From an uncultured Alistipes sp. (GTDB lineage: Bacteria; Bacteroidota; Bacteroidia; Bacteroidales; Rikenellaceae), in contig CALUKH010000003.1 of NCBI GenBank assembly GCA_944321185.1, positions 62,001 through 126,000 on the forward strand: a DNA stretch of 64,000 nt, in the 5' to 3' direction. A model generated the notes under the pieces. The model was not told the DNA's origin, made no database searches, and saw nothing but the letters and a program-made list of their open reading frames with translations. The stretch's first letter is position 1. Each line of letters begins with the position of its first letter. Of the stretch, positions 26,184 through 49,332 are shown piece after piece. Both the position numbers and the translations under genes were made by a program.

Positions 26184-28022
26184 ATGAAACGTTTGTGGAT
26201 GATAGCCGCCTGTGCGGCGGTGCTGCCGCAACTGGTTGCGGCACAGGTGGAGAAACAGGTCGAGGTGACCAAGGCCTACGTGCCGCGTGTGGAGAGCGCC
26301 TCGAAGATTGCCATCGAACCCGACATGACCGATACGACGCACATGCGTCCGGAGATCGACTATACGGTGACGCCGCTGTCGCTGCGCACGACGCTCGCGA
26401 CGCGCCCGATCCGCCCGGCCACGGTCACCTACTGGGAGTTTAACCGTCCGCTGCCCGTCTACGTGAAGGTCGGGGCGGGGTATCCGCTCAATTCGGTGCT
26501 GGACTTCTACGCCACGACGCAGAACCCCTCGACGGGCTATGCCATGGTCTACGTCAACCACGAGGGGCAGTATGCAAAGATCGCCAATTCGTTCGGTGTG
26601 AAGAATAACTCCACGCGGATGTACAACCGGGCGGGCGTTGCGGCCGGGAAGTATCTCGGCCGTCAGACCCTCGAGGGCGAACTCTCCTACGACAACCGCA
26701 TGTATCATCGCTATGGAGCCTGGGCGCCCGCCGCAACGGGACTGGATTTCGGTGTCGGTGCCATGACCGACTACGGGGATGCAAGGCTGCAGCTGCGCTA
26801 TGGGGATGATTTCCAGGACCTTTCGCGTCTGAATTTCGAAGTGGCGCTGCATGGCGGGCTCTTCTTCGACCACACGGAGTGGCCGACCGATGCCGGACAG
26901 GGGGGCGAAGGCTCCATCGGCGCCCGGGGGCGTATCGCCTGGGCCTGGGGCCGGAGCCGCTTCGGTGTGGAGATCGGCTACGATTACATGGGCGGCCGGA
27001 AGTCGCTCGCAAGTGCCAATCAGCAGTTGATCCGGGCCGGCGTGCGCTACGGATTTGCGGGCGGTGTGGCGCGTCTGGACGTGGGGGTTGACTACTACCG
27101 CGACCGCATCACGACGACCTCCATGTCGGATTTCGAGCGTGGCAACTACCTCATTCCCCATCTCCGGCTGGATTTCAACCTCGGCGTTCCGGGTCTCAAA
27201 CCCTTCGTCGAGGCCGACGGAGGCGTGCGCCCGAACGACCTGCGTTCGCTCGCGGAGCAGAATCCCTTCGTGGGACCGGCCGCATGGCTCTACGGCCTGC
27301 CGGGGCTGGGCCGTACGGAGGTGACTGGAACGGCTCCGCTCGAAGGGGTTCCGGCCGACGGGGGATCCTCGCCGTGGCTGGCGAAGAGCTCGGTGGACTA
27401 CAATTTCCGTCTGGGACTGGGCGGCGGTCTCTGGCATTCGATCGTCAACTACCGCCTCTATGCCGGCTTCTCGATCCATGACAACCACCTCTTCTGGACG
27501 GGTTGGCAGGTGGCAACGCCCGAGTCGGGATGCGACGTGCTGTTCGTGCCGGTTCAGGCGCGTCAGACCGTCACGTCGCTCAACGGCGAGATCGAAATCC
27601 GCCCGTTGAGTTCGCTGAAGTTCGACCTCGGCGCCCACGGATATTTATATAACGACGAGACATCGCTCGAAAACGGCGCTCCGGCCTTTGCCGGCAACAT
27701 CGGTGTGACGTACGACGGGCGCAAGATCGCATTCGGCGTCGAGGCCCTGCTCGAGAGCGTGCGCAACTGGACGGTCTACCGCTATGCGCTGCTTCCGGCC
27801 GCGGAGGGTGCAACCCCGGCGGCCACGCCCGAATTTGCGGCGCTGCCGGCGTTCGAAACACCGTTCGGAGCCGATCTGCGGGCCCGTTTCGACTGGCACG
27901 TGTCGGGGCGTGTGACGCTCTTCGCCGAGGGGCGCAACCTGCTGAATCGCAAGCTCTACAACCAGGCCTGGTTCCCGGAGTTGGGCGCTCACTTCATCTT
28001 GGGCATCAAGGCCAACTTCTGA
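26184..28022 (+). CDS. Outer membrane beta-barrel protein paired with the TPR protein
   Basis: This 612-aa protein has a signal peptide (MKRLWMIAACAAVLPQLVAAQ), a short N-terminal stretch (EKQVEVTKAYVPRVESASKI) and then about twenty amphipathic strands ending with the TonB-receptor-like C terminus FILGIKANF. The last strands carry the RVTLFAEGRNLLNRKLYNQ text common in TonB-dependent receptors, but there is no plug domain. It is probably a plugless receptor-type barrel that uses the co-encoded TPR protein, two bases upstream, as periplasmic partner. Function unknown. Confidence 0.75.
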   Translation: MKRLWMIAACAAVLPQLVAAQVEKQVEVTKAYVPRVESASKIAIEPDMTDTTHMRPEIDYTVTPLSLRTTLATRPIRPATVTYWEFNRPLPVYVKVGAGYPLNSVLDFYATTQNPSTGYAMVYVNHEGQYAKIANSFGVKNNSTRMYNRAGVAAGKYLGRQTLEGELSYDNRMYHRYGAWAPAATGLDFGVGAMTDYGDARLQLRYGDDFQDLSRLNFEVALHGGLFFDHTEWPTDAGQGGEGSIGARGRIAWAWGRSRFGVEIGYDYMGGRKSLASANQQLIRAGVRYGFAGGVARLDVGVDYYRDRITTTSMSDFERGNYLIPHLRLDFNLGVPGLKPFVEADGGVRPNDLRSLAEQNPFVGPAAWLYGLPGLGRTEVTGTAPLEGVPADGGSSPWLAKSSVDYNFRLGLGGGLWHSIVNYRLYAGFSIHDNHLFWTGWQVATPESGCDVLFVPVQARQTVTSLNGEIEIRPLSSLKFDLGAHGYLYNDETSLENGAPAFAGNIGVTYDGRKIAFGVEALLESVRNWTVYRYALLPAAEGATPAATPEFAALPAFETPFGADLRARFDWHVSGRVTLFAEGRNLLNRKLYNQAWFPELGAHFILGIKANF

Positions 28023-28143: not shown

Positions 28144-28184
28144 CTATCTTGACACGTGTTGCGGTCGGATCCGCGACACGTGTC
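28144..28184 (+). promoter_or_regulatory. Leader region of the SOD-rubredoxin gene: -7-like box and paired palindromes
   Basis: A degenerate -7 box, CTATCTTG, is at 28144-28150. Directly after it come GACACGTGTT (28151-28160) and GACACGTGTC (28175-28184, a perfect palindrome), 24 bp apart. The flanks also pair, so 28151-28164 and 28171-28184 form a 14-bp stem with one wobble and a 6-nt loop. The region ends 25 nt before the start codon. It could be a repressor operator pair just downstream of the promoter or a 5' mRNA hairpin. Confidence 0.55.
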
Positions 28185-28209: not shown

Positions 28210-28947
28210 ATGAAACATGCGATGCCCGAGCTTCCCTATGCGCCGGAAGCCCTTGCCCCGAAGATGAGTCGTGAAACCATCGACTACCACTACGGGAAAC
28301 ACCTTCAGACCTACGTCGACAACCTCAACGGGTTGATCCCCGGAACCCCCTACGAGGCGATGACGCTCGACGACATCGTGCGGCGGGCCGACGGTGCCAT
28401 CTTCAACAATGCCGCCCAGGCCTGGAATCACACCTTCTTTTTCCGGATGCTGACCCCCGCGCAGGGCCCCATGCCCGAGAAACTCACGGCCAAACTCACG
28501 GCGGAGTTCGGCTCGGTCGAGGCTTTCCGCGAACGCTTCACGCGGGCCGCACTCGGATTGTTCGGTTCGGGATGGGTCTGGCTGGTGGCCGATCGCGAGG
28601 GGCATCTGTCGATCGAGGCCCGTTCGAATGCCGGCAATCCGTTGACCGAGGGGCTGCGTCCGCTGCTGACGGTCGACGTCTGGGAGCACGCCTACTACAT
28701 CGATTACCGCAATCGCCGCGCCGACTTCCTGAAGGCCTTCTGGGAGCTGGTCGACTGGCAGCAGGTGGCCGATCGGGCCGTTCCGCGGCGGTATCGCTGC
28801 ACGGCGTGTGATTACGTCTACGACCCGGCGAAGGGCGATCCCGAGACGGGTATTGCTCCCGGAACTCCCTTCGAGGAGATTCCCGACGATTGGACCTGTC
28901 CGTTGTGCGGACTTCACAAGGAGGCCTTCCAGCCCGTCGGGGAGTAG
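28210..28947 (+). CDS. sodB: Fe-type superoxide dismutase fused to a C-terminal rubredoxin domain
   Basis: This 245-aa protein has two domains. Residues 5-190 are a complete Fe/Mn-SOD of FeSOD type: metal ligands His27, His74, Asp156 and His160 ([11 protein letters not shown]), gateway His31 and Tyr35, and the FeSOD-typical Gln70 (NNAAQAWNH). Residues 193-243 are a full rubredoxin: [15 protein letters not shown], then [10 protein letters not shown], with iron-ligand Cys197, 200, 230 and 233. The junction is a short PRR linker with no frame break. SOD dismutates superoxide without an external donor, so a covalently attached one-electron carrier is unexpected. It might give superoxide-reductase-like activity. 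The start is the ATG giving [15 protein letters not shown], matching SodB. Confidence 0.95.
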
Positions 28948-29041: not shown

Positions 29042-29317
29042 TCAGAAGACGAACTTCTCGAGCTTCAGTTCACCCAGCTGCTCCATGCGCGGAACGAGCG
29101 TCGTGAAGTGCGACGACTGTTCGTGGGCCGTGAGGGCCTTGGCATCGCTCCACGTCTCGCAGATCATCAGAACGTCGCGGCGCGTCGTGCTCTCGAAGAG
29201 GTCGTAGGCGACGCAGCCTTCGTCCTTGAGCGAAGCGGCGACCAGTTCGCGGGCCGTGCGGACGAGTTCTTCACGGTTGCTCTCCGTCGTGCGGATAAAT
29301 ACATTCAAACGTATCAT
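29042..29317 (-). CDS. Antibiotic biosynthesis monooxygenase (ABM) domain protein, YgiN-like
   Basis: This 91-aa protein is a single ABM ferredoxin-like domain: MIRLNVFIRTTESNREELVRTARELV, then CVAYDLFEST, LMICETWSD, and the helix FTTLVPRMEQL (segments given separately). Such small dimeric proteins act as quinol or other cofactor-free oxygenases, or as uncharacterised stress proteins. The ATG was chosen because it starts the first beta-strand; the 33 upstream codons lack similarity. It is a monocistronic gene next to the SOD-rubredoxin fusion, which hints at an oxidative-stress setting but does not show it. Confidence 0.8.
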   Translation of the reverse strand: MIRLNVFIRTTESNREELVRTARELVAASLKDEGCVAYDLFESTTRRDVLMICETWSDAKALTAHEQSSHFTTLVPRMEQLGELKLEKFVF

Positions 29318-29516
29318 AACGTGTCGGTTTATGGATGTCGCGGGGTCATTCCCGGGCCATCCGGTTAGCTTGACGGGACGAATATAGTAAAAAATTCGGG
29401 AAACGGAACCCGTCACGGCGTCTTTTCCAGATCTGGATCGTCTGCGGAACGTGCCGAACGAACCGCCGCAGCCCGAAAGAGATGACCTTTCAACAATCTC
29501 AAAATCTCAATAAAAG

Positions 29517-30584
29517 ATGAAAACAAAACAGCTATTCTTGGCCCTTGCGGCGATGTGCGGAGCTTTCGAGGCGCTGGCCTGTACGGGGCTGTCGCTGACG
29601 GCAGCCGACGGCAGTTACGTCCAGGCGCGGACCATCGAGTGGGGAAACAGTGCGCTGGAGAGCATGTATGTGGTCATTCCGCGCGGACAGTCGCTGCAGT
29701 CGCTCACGCCCGGAAGCGAACCGGGTGTGGCGTTCAAGGCCCGTTACGGGGTGGTGGGGCTGGCCGTCGTCGAGGAGCGCTTCATCGCCGAGGGAATCAA
29801 CGAGGCGGGGCTTTCGGCCGGTCTGTTCTTCTTCCCGCAGTACGGCAGCTACGAGTCATACGAGGCCGCGCAGAGCGACCGTACGCTGGTCGATCTCGAA
29901 GTGGCGCAATGGATTCTGACGCAGTTTGCGACGATCGACGAGGTGAAGGCCTCGATCGGTGACGTGCGCATCGTGGGGCTTGAGGCCAATGCCGTCGTAC
30001 ACTGGCGCATCGGCGAGCCGTCGGGCCGTCAGGTGGTGCTGGAGATCGTCGACGGCGTGCCGCACTTTTATGAAAACGAGGTGGGGGTGCTGACCAATGC
30101 TCCGGGATTCGAGTGGCAGGTGACCAATCTGAACAACTACGTCAATCTGCGTCCGGGCGATGTCGAGCCCTACAAGATGGATGAGAAGACGCTGCGGGCA
30201 TTCGGCGCTACGGCCGGTTTTCTGGGGCTTCCGGGCGACGATACACCGCCGTCGCGCTTCGTGCGTGCGGCCTTCTTCCGCGCTACGGCGCCGCAGCGGG
30301 CTACGGCCTTCGCCACCGTGCAGGAGTGTTTCCACCTGCTGAACAATTTCGACGTGCCGATCGGTCTGGAGCATCCCGCCGGTGAGTGTCCCGATATCCC
30401 GAGCGCCACGCAGTGGACCTCGGCCATCGACCTCACGCACCGCGTGGTCTACTACAAGACGGCCTACAACAATACGATCCGTTCGATCGATCTGTCGCAG
30501 ATCGACTTCGGAAAGGTCCGCTACCAAGTACATCCGCTCGACCGCGAGCCCGTGCAGCCCGTCGAGCGGATCACGGTGCGATAG
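29517..30584 (+). CDS. Choloylglycine hydrolase (Ntn) family linear amide hydrolase, bile-salt-hydrolase-like
   Basis: This 355-aa protein has a signal peptide MKTKQLFLALAAMCGAFEALA, then Cys22, which becomes the N-terminal nucleophile after cleavage. Other family residues are Arg38 (QARTIEWG), Asn95 (GINEAGLSAG), Asn194 (VLTNAPGFEWQ) and Arg247 (SRFVRA). At the position where bile salt hydrolases carry Asp (about 21 in their numbering) this protein has Glu41. The family hydrolyses bile salt, penicillin V or N-acyl homoserine lactone amides. Gut origin favours bile salts, but the substrate cannot be settled here. It is secreted, with no clear operon partner. Confidence 0.88.
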   Translation: MKTKQLFLALAAMCGAFEALACTGLSLTAADGSYVQARTIEWGNSALESMYVVIPRGQSLQSLTPGSEPGVAFKARYGVVGLAVVEERFIAEGINEAGLSAGLFFFPQYGSYESYEAAQSDRTLVDLEVAQWILTQFATIDEVKASIGDVRIVGLEANAVVHWRIGEPSGRQVVLEIVDGVPHFYENEVGVLTNAPGFEWQVTNLNNYVNLRPGDVEPYKMDEKTLRAFGATAGFLGLPGDDTPPSRFVRAAFFRATAPQRATAFATVQECFHLLNNFDVPIGLEHPAGECPDIPSATQWTSAIDLTHRVVYYKTAYNNTIRSIDLSQIDFGKVRYQVHPLDREPVQPVERITVR

Positions 30585-41667: not shown

Positions 41668-41767
41668 AGAATTCCGGGCGTAACCGATGGCCGGAGACCG
41701 AAAGGTGGAGGGCCGCAGGCTACGATCAAAAACGAATTAATAAGAACAATTAAAACATAGTACGATT

Positions 41768-43687
41768 ATGGCAAAGATTATTGGTATTGACTTGGGAACC
41801 ACGAACTCCTGCGTAGCAGTGATGGAGGGCAACGAGCCCGTAGTGATTCCGAACTCGGAGGGACACCGTACGACCCCGTCGGTCGTGGCCTTTACGTCGG
41901 AAGGCGAGCGCAAGGTCGGTGACCCGGCAAAGCGTCAGGCTATTACGAACCCGAAGCGCACGGTCTTCTCGATCAAACGTTTCATGGGTGAAACCTATGA
42001 TAAGGTAACGGCTGATATTGCACGTGCCCCGTATACGATCGTGCGTGGCGACAACAACACGCCGCGTGTGGACATCGACGGCCGTCAGTACACGCCGCAG
42101 GAGATTTCGGCCATCATCCTTCAGAAGATGAAGAAGACGGCCGAGGATTACCTCGGTCAGGAGGTTACCGAAGCCGTCATCACGGTTCCGGCCTACTTCT
42201 CCGATTCGCAGCGTCAGGCTACGAAGGAGGCCGGTGAGATTGCCGGTCTGAAGGTTCGCCGTATCATCAACGAGCCTACGGCCGCAGCCCTGGCCTACGG
42301 TCTGGACAAGAAGGCCAACGACATGAAGATCGCCGTATACGACCTGGGTGGCGGTACGTTCGATATCTCGATCCTGGAGCTGGGCGACGGCGTCTTCGAA
42401 GTGAAATCGACCAACGGCGATACGCACCTGGGAGGTGATGACTTCGACCACGTGCTGATCGACTACATGGCCGAGTCGTTCAAGGCCGAGCACGGAATCG
42501 ACCTGCGTGAGGACCCGATGGCGCTGCAGCGTCTGAAGGAGGCCGCCGAGAAGGCGAAGATCGAACTTTCGTCGTCGACCACCACGGAGATCAACCTGCC
42601 GTACATCATGCCGGTGAACGGAATTCCGCAGCACCTGGTCATGACGCTGACGCGGGCCAAGTTCGAGCAGCTGTGCGACCACTTGATCCGCAAGACCGTG
42701 GAGCCTTGCAAACTGGCCCTGCGCGATGCAGGCCTGACCGCTTCGCAGATCGACGAAGTGATCCTCGTGGGTGGTTCGACGCGTATTCCTGCGATCCAGA
42801 AGATCGTCGAGGAGTTCTTCGGCAAGACGCCCAACAAGTCGGTCAACCCGGACGAGGTCGTAGCCATCGGTGCCGCCATTCAGGGTGGTGTGCTGACGGG
42901 CGAAGTGAAGGACGTGCTGCTGCTTGACGTAACGCCGCTGTCGCTGGGTATCGAGACCCTGGGCGGCGTGATGACCAAGCTGATCGACGCCAACACGACC
43001 ATCCCGACCCGCAAGTCGGAGGTCTTCTCGACGGCGGCCGACAACCAGCCTTCGGTAGAGATCAACGTATGCCAGGGTGAGCGTCCGCTGGCCCGCGACA
43101 ACAAGTCGATCGGTCGGTTCCATCTCGATGGGATTCCTGCCGCACCGCGTGGTGTGCCGCAGATCGAGGTAACGTTCGATATCGATGCCAACGGTATCCT
43201 GAACGTATCGGCCAAGGACAAGGGTACGGGCAAGGAACAGAAGATCCGTATCGAGGCATCGTCGGGTCTGACCGAGCAGGAGATCCAGCGGATGCGTGAC
43301 GAGGCCAAGGCCAACGAGGCCAAGGACAAGGCCGAGAAGGAGCGTATCGACAAGATCAACGCCGCCGACTCGAACATCTTCACCACCGAGAAGCAGCTCA
43401 AGGAGTACGGTGACAAACTGCCCGCCGACAAGAAGGCTGCCATCGAAGGGGCTCTGGCCAAACTGAAGGAGGCTCACAAGAATGCCGACGTGGCCGCTAT
43501 CGACACGGCGATGAACGAGCTGAATGCCGCATGGCAGGCCGCTTCGCAGGACATCTACTCGGCTCAGCAGAATCAGCAGAGCCAGCAGAACGCACAGTCC
43601 AATGCGGGCCAGCAGTCGAATGCCGGCAGCCAGCAGGGCGGCAACAACGGTCAGCCCGAGGACGTCGAGTTCGAAGAGGTGAAATAG
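41768..43687 (+). CDS. dnaK: Molecular chaperone DnaK (Hsp70)
   Basis: This 639-aa protein is full-length DnaK: ATPase start [19 protein letters not shown], phosphate loops ([37 protein letters not shown]), the substrate-binding domain ([20 protein letters not shown]), a helical lid, a Gln/Asn-rich tail and the conserved acidic end VEFEEVK. It is a cytosolic ATP-driven protein-folding chaperone. No grpE, dnaJ or hrcA is adjacent, and the gene appears to be transcribed alone between its own promoter region and a strong terminator. Confidence 0.98.
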
Positions 43688-43729
43688 GGTGACGGCCCCG
43701 CCGCAGGGCGGACCGAAGCCTGAACCGAC

Positions 43730-43767
43730 AAGGGTGCATTCCGGAAACGGGATGCGCCCTTTTTTTG
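43730..43767 (+). terminator. Terminator of dnaK
   Basis: A 14-bp stem (AAGGGTGCATTCCG / CGGGATGCGCCCTT, with wobbles) and a GAAA loop are followed by seven T; a duplicated T6GTGCC element lies just after. Confidence 0.92.
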
Positions 43768-43858
43768 TGCCTTTTTTGTGCCTTGACGAAGACAAGGTTT
43801 TGACGAGGGGCGGCTCCGGAATACGGACGGGAGCGTTGTTGCGAGGCGGAGAATTTGC

Positions 43859-43866
43859 TACCTTTG
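43859..43866 (+). promoter_or_regulatory. -7-like box for the SMR gene
   Basis: TACCTTTG matches TAnnTTTG, 36 nt before the ATG. The leader is too short to hold a guanidine riboswitch. Confidence 0.55.
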
Positions 43867-43902
43867 CGCATTGCAAATCACAATCTCAAACTGCGATATC
43901 GT

Positions 43903-48831: not shown

Positions 48832-49332
48832 ATGAAACGGACCTGGAAACGAATCGGGGCGTGCGTGTTGCTCACGCTGGTGTGTTTTACCGTCGGGGGA
48901 CTTTCGTCGTGGTTGCAGGGGGCGTCGCTCGCGGAGTGGTACCCGCTGCTGGCCAAGTCGCCGCTGACGCCTCCGGCCCTGGCTTTCCCCGTGGCGTGGA
49001 GCCTGTTGTACCTCTGCATTGGCATCTCGGGCGGGCTGGTGATGACCTCGGAGCGGATTCCGCGGGTGGAACGCCGACGGACGATGCGTCTCTGGACGGC
49101 CCAGCTGGCCTTCAACTTCGGGTGGAGCCTGCTCTTCTTTGCGTTGCGGAATCCGCTGCTGGGGCTGCTCGACATCGTGGCCCTCGACCTGCTGGTGGTG
49201 CTTTACCTCGTGCGGACGTGGCGACAGCACGAACGGACGGCCGCCTGGCTTTTCATGCCCTATCTGGTGTGGATCCTCTTCGCCACCTATCTCAACGGCT
49301 ACATCCTGGCGGCGAACGGCACGGGTTTCTGA
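48832..49332 (+). CDS. tspO: TspO/MBR family protein
   Basis: This 166-aa protein has five helices and the TspO pattern, including WYPLLAKSPLTPPALAFPVAWSLLYL, split here as WYPLLAKSPLTPP and FPVAWSLLYLCIGISGG, then LAFNFGWSLLFFALRNPLLG and the final VWILFATYLNGYI. TspO proteins bind tetrapyrroles or cholesterol and are linked to oxidative stress and porphyrin traffic. The length is typical. The gene stands between a small membrane protein gene and the coaE cluster. Confidence 0.9.
   Translation: MKRTWKRIGACVLLTLVCFTVGGLSSWLQGASLAEWYPLLAKSPLTPPALAFPVAWSLLYLCIGISGGLVMTSERIPRVERRRTMRLWTAQLAFNFGWSLLFFALRNPLLGLLDIVALDLLVVLYLVRTWRQHERTAAWLFMPYLVWILFATYLNGYILAANGTGF

Follow-up and report, generated by a model that had tools for sequence, protein, structure and literature searches.

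An Fe-type superoxide dismutase fused to rubredoxin in Alistipes and its possible derivation from a tspO-sod-rubredoxin gene group

By every sequence test that we applied, a gene of an uncultured Alistipes sp. encodes an Fe-type superoxide dismutase (SOD) that is joined to a rubredoxin in a single polypeptide. The gene is located in a 64,000-nt stretch of contig CALUKH010000003.1, which we refer to as the window. We tentatively propose that its product is a cytosolic Fe-SOD with an attached rubredoxin donor, which, at low levels of superoxide, would work in the mode of a superoxide reductase. We give this proposal, including the electron transfer between the two domains that it implies, slightly less than an even chance. 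SODs and superoxide reductases are viewed as unrelated solutions to the problem of superoxide. If the proposal is true, one scaffold could be switched from dismutation to reduction merely by wiring in electrons, which would be useful to an anaerobe, since no O2 is released. A wider claim appears rather unlikely to us, namely that gut Bacteroidales possess a new superoxide reductase on an SOD scaffold, derived from a tspO-sod-rubredoxin module of which we found no description and which would connect the handling of tetrapyrroles at the membrane with the defence against superoxide.

A complete SOD and a complete rubredoxin in one reading frame

The fusion gene occupies positions 28210..28947 of the window and, like all features described in this section, lies on the forward strand. 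It encodes 245 residues between an ATG start and a TAG stop, and its translation contains no internal stop. An in-frame GTG at 28156, if used as the start, would add 18 residues; the aligned fusions start at the Met equivalent to position 28210. The Fe-type SOD domain (residues 1-189, 28210..28776) was delimited by Pfam (Sod_Fe_N, PF00081, residues 2-81, 1e-25; Sod_Fe_C, PF02777, residues 90-189, 3.6e-38), by alignment and by fold match. Its metal ligands are His27 (28288-28290), His74 (28429-28431), Asp156 (28675-28677) and His160 (28687-28689). The rubredoxin domain (residues 194-240, 28789..28929) was recognized by Pfam (PF00301, residues 194-240, 8.2e-25), by alignment and by the NCBIfam model RubredRD, against which the protein scores 98 bits, above the cut-off of 90 bits. 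Two CxxC motifs provide the iron ligands Cys197 (28798-28800), Cys200 (28807-28809), Cys230 (28897-28899) and Cys233 (28906-28908). An alignment of 24 fusions places the junction at residues 186-196 (11 residues, 28765..28797). The initial annotation had described a complete FeSOD continuing in frame into a complete rubredoxin, and the single 245-residue frame with all named ligands and the four Cys residues bears this out.

All of these ligands are invariant in 24 of the 24 aligned fusions, as is Gln70, which corresponds in position to Gln69 of the E. coli FeSOD. Two residues before Asp156, the window protein carries Thr154, that is, neither Gly nor Ala, the residues that accompany Mn preference at this position in Fe/Mn-SODs (PMC10172142, in excerpt). 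At the level of such markers, Gln70 and Thr154 assign the window SOD to the Fe-preferring enzymes. Two residues that seemed suited to a special role did not qualify for one. Cys190, a candidate electron relay near the junction, is Cys in 16 and Ala in eight of the 24 fusions, the window protein among the latter, and is hence not essential. Asp201 stands where Gly usually follows the second Cys and could have tuned the redox site, but is common in free Alistipes rubredoxins as well.

An AlphaFold model calculated with the 24 fusions as input has a mean pLDDT of 90 and a pTM of 0.84. By segment, the pLDDT is 93 at residues 181-190 and 91 at residues 191-200, with a dip to 70 at residues 161-170. 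The SOD part of the model matches the structures of E. coli FeSOD and B. fragilis SodFM2 with TM-scores of 0.91-0.94 of the target, and the first 18 Foldseek rows for this part range from 0.90 to 0.95. Because the N-terminus coincides with the start of other Fe-SODs, we infer that the fusion is a cytosolic protein; by homology, its SOD part should be dimeric.

With E. coli SodB, B. fragilis SodFM2 and the P. gingivalis SOD, the fusion shares the four metal ligands, Gln70, the fold and the position of the N-terminus, and it differs from them by the additional C-terminal rubredoxin. Like the two-iron superoxide reductase desulfoferrodoxin (Dx-SOR), it combines an Fe(Cys)4 domain with an iron site that reacts with superoxide (excerpt of PMC3116461). 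In the fusion, however, the catalytic domain is an SOD instead of the Fe(His)4(Cys) centre II of superoxide reductases (PF01880), and the Fe(Cys)4 site is a full C-terminal rubredoxin. Since Pfam reports no PF01880 match in the protein, the fusion stands outside the superoxide reductase family, yet it may work like a member of it. Built-in rubredoxin donors are also found in the O2/NO-reducing flavorubredoxin NorV and in a flavodiiron-rubredoxin-reductase fusion reported for T. vaginalis (PMC9364112), both of which have a flavodiiron catalytic domain and not an SOD; against the NorV model, the window rubredoxin reaches only 51.6 bits, far below the cut-off of 711 bits. A natural SOD fusion is reported for D. 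radiodurans, where a Cu/Zn-SOD is linked to a beta-propeller lactonase, but it belongs to another SOD family and its partner is no electron carrier (PMC12362111). The hydrogenase-rubrerythrin chimera of C. perfringens likewise joins an electron source to a defence against oxygen species, with other catalytic domains (PMC11926857). Among the matches listed in a literature search, which covered few subscription papers, we found no report of an SOD-rubredoxin or TspO-SOD fusion; the excerpt of PMC8243069 mentions neither rubredoxin nor superoxide dismutase.

Distribution and conservation of the fusion

Searching genomes for further FeSOD-rubredoxin fusions had been suggested by the initial annotation as a check, and such fusions were indeed recovered in two ways. 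Of 268 genomes in the window's family, 21 contain a full-length match, and such matches were sorted to the top of the results. All 21 belong to the window's genus (21 of 180 genomes), with none among the 88 genomes of the other genera. For a wider search, we used a degenerate DNA pattern that spans motifs of both domains and allows 60 nt of play in their spacing; it recognized each of the 21 full-length fusion loci but not a single one of 28 other loci. In 84,980 species' genomes, this pattern detected 23 fusion loci, 18 in Alistipes and five in Phocaeicola/Bacteroides (P. barnesiae DSM 18169, B. ilei Marseille-P3208 and three MAGs). As the pattern requires particular motifs, this count leaves aside fusions with a different spacing, other motif letters or reversed domain order. 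The two sets overlap and jointly contain 26 different SOD domains. Among the matches listed for 393 genomes of the order, best first, there was no additional full-length one. In a tblastn search of 72,556 plasmid records, two records cover at least 80% of the fusion query; the eight rows listed, of 300, align to the SOD part alone (query 19-187).

In 23 of 23 pattern loci, an identical distance separates the SOD motif from the first rubredoxin Cys despite the 60 nt of play, the encoded proteins are 243-246 residues long, and the junction is free of indels across the 24 aligned fusions. An assembly artefact is ruled out by this identical spacing in 23 loci; moreover, four of the records carry no MAG label (A. 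montrealensis kh20, Alistipes sp. An66, P. barnesiae DSM 18169 and B. ilei Marseille-P3208). For the unsaturated pairs of the 24 fusion genes, the median dN/dS is 0.148 for the SOD (166 of 276 pairs), 0.294 for the junction (156 pairs) and 0.092 for the rubredoxin (127 pairs), rough values given that synonymous change is nearly saturated in many pairs. Both domains are thus under purifying selection, with conservation stronger in the rubredoxin than in the SOD. This conservation, together with the consideration that a single iron would make a poor store, argues against the idea that the rubredoxin serves as a redox or iron store or as a sensor, which would stabilize the SOD or signal its state. 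The one-iron site could in principle store, but we regard this explanation as very improbable.

Rubredoxin genes next to unfused SODs

If the two functions belong together, they might also be found as separate neighbours. Outside the fusion, a rubredoxin gene is located within 180 nt of an SOD gene and on the same strand in 12 loci, a non-systematic count, since four of them (L140-L143) were chosen because the pairing was already visible. In nine of these loci (L031, L032, L130, L131, L140-L144), the rubredoxin gene precedes a member of the other Alistipes SOD lineage by 92-178 nt. In the other three, it lies downstream, either of a TspO-SOD gene (L013, L044) or of an SOD gene (L079). In a further locus (L025), a rubredoxin gene is near the SOD gene but in opposite orientation. 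Ten of the 12 SOD-adjacent rubredoxins form a subfamily of their own (support 97/96), apart from the fused one, with L079 and L140 outside it; eight of the nine encoded upstream of the other SOD lineage likewise belong to a subfamily different from the fused one. Because ten of the 12 are of a separate subfamily, the association of SOD and rubredoxin does not go back to a single inheritance.

Arrangements with tspO

A second recurrent partner is the membrane protein TspO. Components of the putative tspO-sod-rubredoxin module are found either fused in pairs (TspO-SOD and SOD-rubredoxin) or encoded next to each other (TspO and rubredoxin). A single reading frame encodes a TspO of ~155 residues, a linker and an SOD in 13 loci of the genus (L013, L015-L022, L024, L044, L046, L047), and the same order is present in three of four loci of another family (L073-L075). 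In the 398-residue frame of L044, for example, Pfam places TspO at residues 44-181 and the SOD at residues 210-397; in this frame (L044:877-2070), the positive residues of TspO, judged by eye, suggest that the fused SOD could face the periplasm. The TspO-SOD genes of L013 and L044 are followed, after a short gap, by the above rubredoxin genes, which are of a different subfamily from the fused one. In six genomes (L134-L139), tspO is followed on the same strand by a rubredoxin gene, with gaps of -2 to 49 nt as measured between the aligned ends, and these rubredoxins share a clade with the fused domain. Finally, tspO is located directly upstream of the SOD-rubredoxin fusion gene itself in one locus (L042, identical to L072).

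These arrangements raise the possibility that SOD and rubredoxin protect or power a membrane tetrapyrrole step of TspO, in which case the SOD-rubredoxin fusion would be a soluble remnant. Besides the TspO-SOD fusions, which occur in this genus and in a second family, the tspO gene upstream of one fusion and the six tspO-rubredoxin pairs, this would agree with B. cereus TspO, which influences the accumulation of porphyrins as well as redox balance under anoxia (PMC13185565, in excerpt). However, TspO was found in nine of the 21 fused genomes, in one of these as a fragment, and the fusion persists without it. In the window, tspO (48832-49332, forward strand, 166 residues) is neither fused nor adjacent to the fusion gene but 20 kb away, and its product groups, weakly, with TspO proteins that have no SOD or rubredoxin neighbour. 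We therefore consider such a service to TspO improbable as an explanation of the fusion. The link to TspO provides a new lead on the function of bacterial TspO.

Phylogeny and origin of the fusion

The initial annotation had also proposed to map the phylogeny of the fusions. In a tree of 98 SOD domains, built by a quick method, the SOD-rubredoxin forms fall within one lineage of 47 rows (SH-aLRT 96), which also contains all 16 TspO-SOD rows and five rows without such a fusion; the branching order inside this lineage is unsure. The other Alistipes SOD lineage is separate (24 rows, support 100) and holds the second SOD of the window's genome; the plain SOD of the genus is of a different lineage from that of the fusion. 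A tree of 50 rows, built with greater care, recovered no single group for the Alistipes fusions or for the Phocaeicola fusions (two and three changes). An AU test did not reject all 26 fused SODs as one clade (p 0.268) and rejected the TspO-SOD forms as one clade at the borderline (p 0.0487). A single origin of the fusion is thus compatible with the trees, though not thereby established.

In a tree of 57 rubredoxins, the 23 fused domains share a clade (bootstrap 97, SH-aLRT 94) with the six free rubredoxins whose genes directly follow tspO, and this clade lies away from the ordinary free rubredoxins. With 53 columns, the order within the clade is uncertain; two of the six free proteins fall among the fused ones. 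Because these closest free relatives adjoin tspO, the first partner of the fused rubredoxin may have been TspO. A further hint comes from the junction: three of the Phocaeicola/Bacteroides fusions (L055, L056, L067) read VMKRY here, with Met at residue 192, which looks like a retained former rubredoxin start. Based on the SOD and rubredoxin clades, the layouts of L013, L044 and L042 and the VMKRY junction, the fusion most likely arose from neighbouring genes of a tspO-sod-rubredoxin group. It looks like a rearranged piece of this group, a relationship that the initial annotation had missed. We further infer that the fusion was transferred between Alistipes and Phocaeicola, with which the differing gene neighbours agree.

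Other superoxide enzymes in the fused genomes

Besides the fusion, the genome of the window (79% complete) encodes a plain SOD with 53% identity and a free rubredoxin with 63% identity. Within the genus, ten of the 21 fused genomes yielded no Fe/Mn-SOD other than the fusion (one PF02777 match each), and their sole other match to the fusion query is a free rubredoxin. Five of these ten genomes are at least 90% complete, and one (G163) is a single contig. The remaining 11 fused genomes have three or four matches to the query, and a second SOD is present in two of the five Phocaeicola/Bacteroides fusion genomes. Cu/Zn-SOD was found in none of the 21 fused genomes, in a search that left Ni-SOD aside, and superoxide reductase (PF01880) in none of the 21 either, including the 79% complete genome of the window. 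Genomes in which the fusion is the sole superoxide enzyme found, with no other Fe/Mn-SOD, Cu/Zn-SOD or superoxide reductase, make the proposed donor role directly testable.

PF01880 occurs in 86 of the 180 genomes of the genus, so we considered whether the fusion had replaced superoxide reductase. In an RpoB tree of 119 genomes, 13 of them fused, the nearest relatives of the fused genomes mostly lack PF01880, too, and of four independent pairs comparing fusion and superoxide reductase none was informative. Because the fused genomes cluster with such relatives, the absence of superoxide reductase carries no independent weight.

The gene content of these genomes also bears on the explanation that we rank as the main rival to a built-in donor, namely that the fusion merely ensures joint production and location of its halves. 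The SOD would make peroxide and the rubredoxin would feed a partner such as rubrerythrin, which removes it, while no electrons would reach the SOD iron. The window's genome has two matches to rubrerythrin-like genes above the cut-off, the lineage of the fused rubredoxin also occurs beside tspO without an SOD and could thus have a job of its own, and adjoining SOD and rubredoxin genes that would be able to fuse are seen. On the other hand, the constant junction length in 24 fusions is more than co-production needs, and a separate free rubredoxin is available in the window's genome and in the ten genomes checked. Taken together, we regard co-production as doubtful.

A proposed built-in electron donor for the SOD

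In the reading that we prefer, with the rubredoxin as donor to the SOD, a cellular rubredoxin reductase would reduce the rubredoxin domain, which would in turn reduce the Fe(III)-SOD, and the resulting Fe(II)-SOD would reduce superoxide to peroxide. With little superoxide present, an oxidised SOD would wait long for a second superoxide, and even a slow internal transfer would suffice to replace the O2-releasing half-cycle. The outcome would be a superoxide:rubredoxin oxidoreductase. At high superoxide, or if no reductant is available, the protein would act as an ordinary dismutase.

Rubredoxins have potentials near 0 V. The optimal potential of an SOD is ~0.3 V (PMC13008324, in excerpt). Given these two values, transfer from the rubredoxin to the SOD iron would be downhill. 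With an SOD rate constant of ~1e9 M-1 s-1 and superoxide at ~1e-10 M, an oxidised SOD meets superoxide about once per 10 s, and any internal transfer faster than this would shift the enzyme towards reduction. On these values, both thermodynamics and kinetics would allow the rubredoxin to reduce the SOD iron.

The intact catalytic residues of all 24 aligned fusions, the fixed spacing, the low dN/dS, the recurrent neighbourhood of SOD and rubredoxin genes and the genomes in which the fusion is the sole SOD all speak for a donor role, whereas the closest free relatives of the fused rubredoxin, adjoining tspO and not an SOD, speak against it. The suggestion of the initial annotation that the rubredoxin serves the SOD thus stood in part: a functional link is credible, because the fusion is genuine and conserved, because purifying selection acts on it and because rubredoxin genes adjoin unfused SODs, but the tspO neighbourhood of those relatives weakens the case for the SOD as the partner served.

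Gene neighbourhood in the window

The open reading frame upstream of the fusion gene ends at 28022, and the next recognized gene downstream (29042-29416) is on the opposite strand; the fusion gene is therefore probably a lone transcription unit. Just downstream, a choloylglycine hydrolase family protein (PF02275) is encoded at 29517-30584 on the forward strand, and the neighbours in L050 appear similar by eye. Elsewhere in the window, an open reading frame on the reverse strand (41750-43876) matches PF10712 (‘NAD-GH’, 3.8e-170), which we take to be a family of spurious antisense frames; the true gene at this place may be the 639-residue frame on the forward strand (41768-43687), possibly dnaK.
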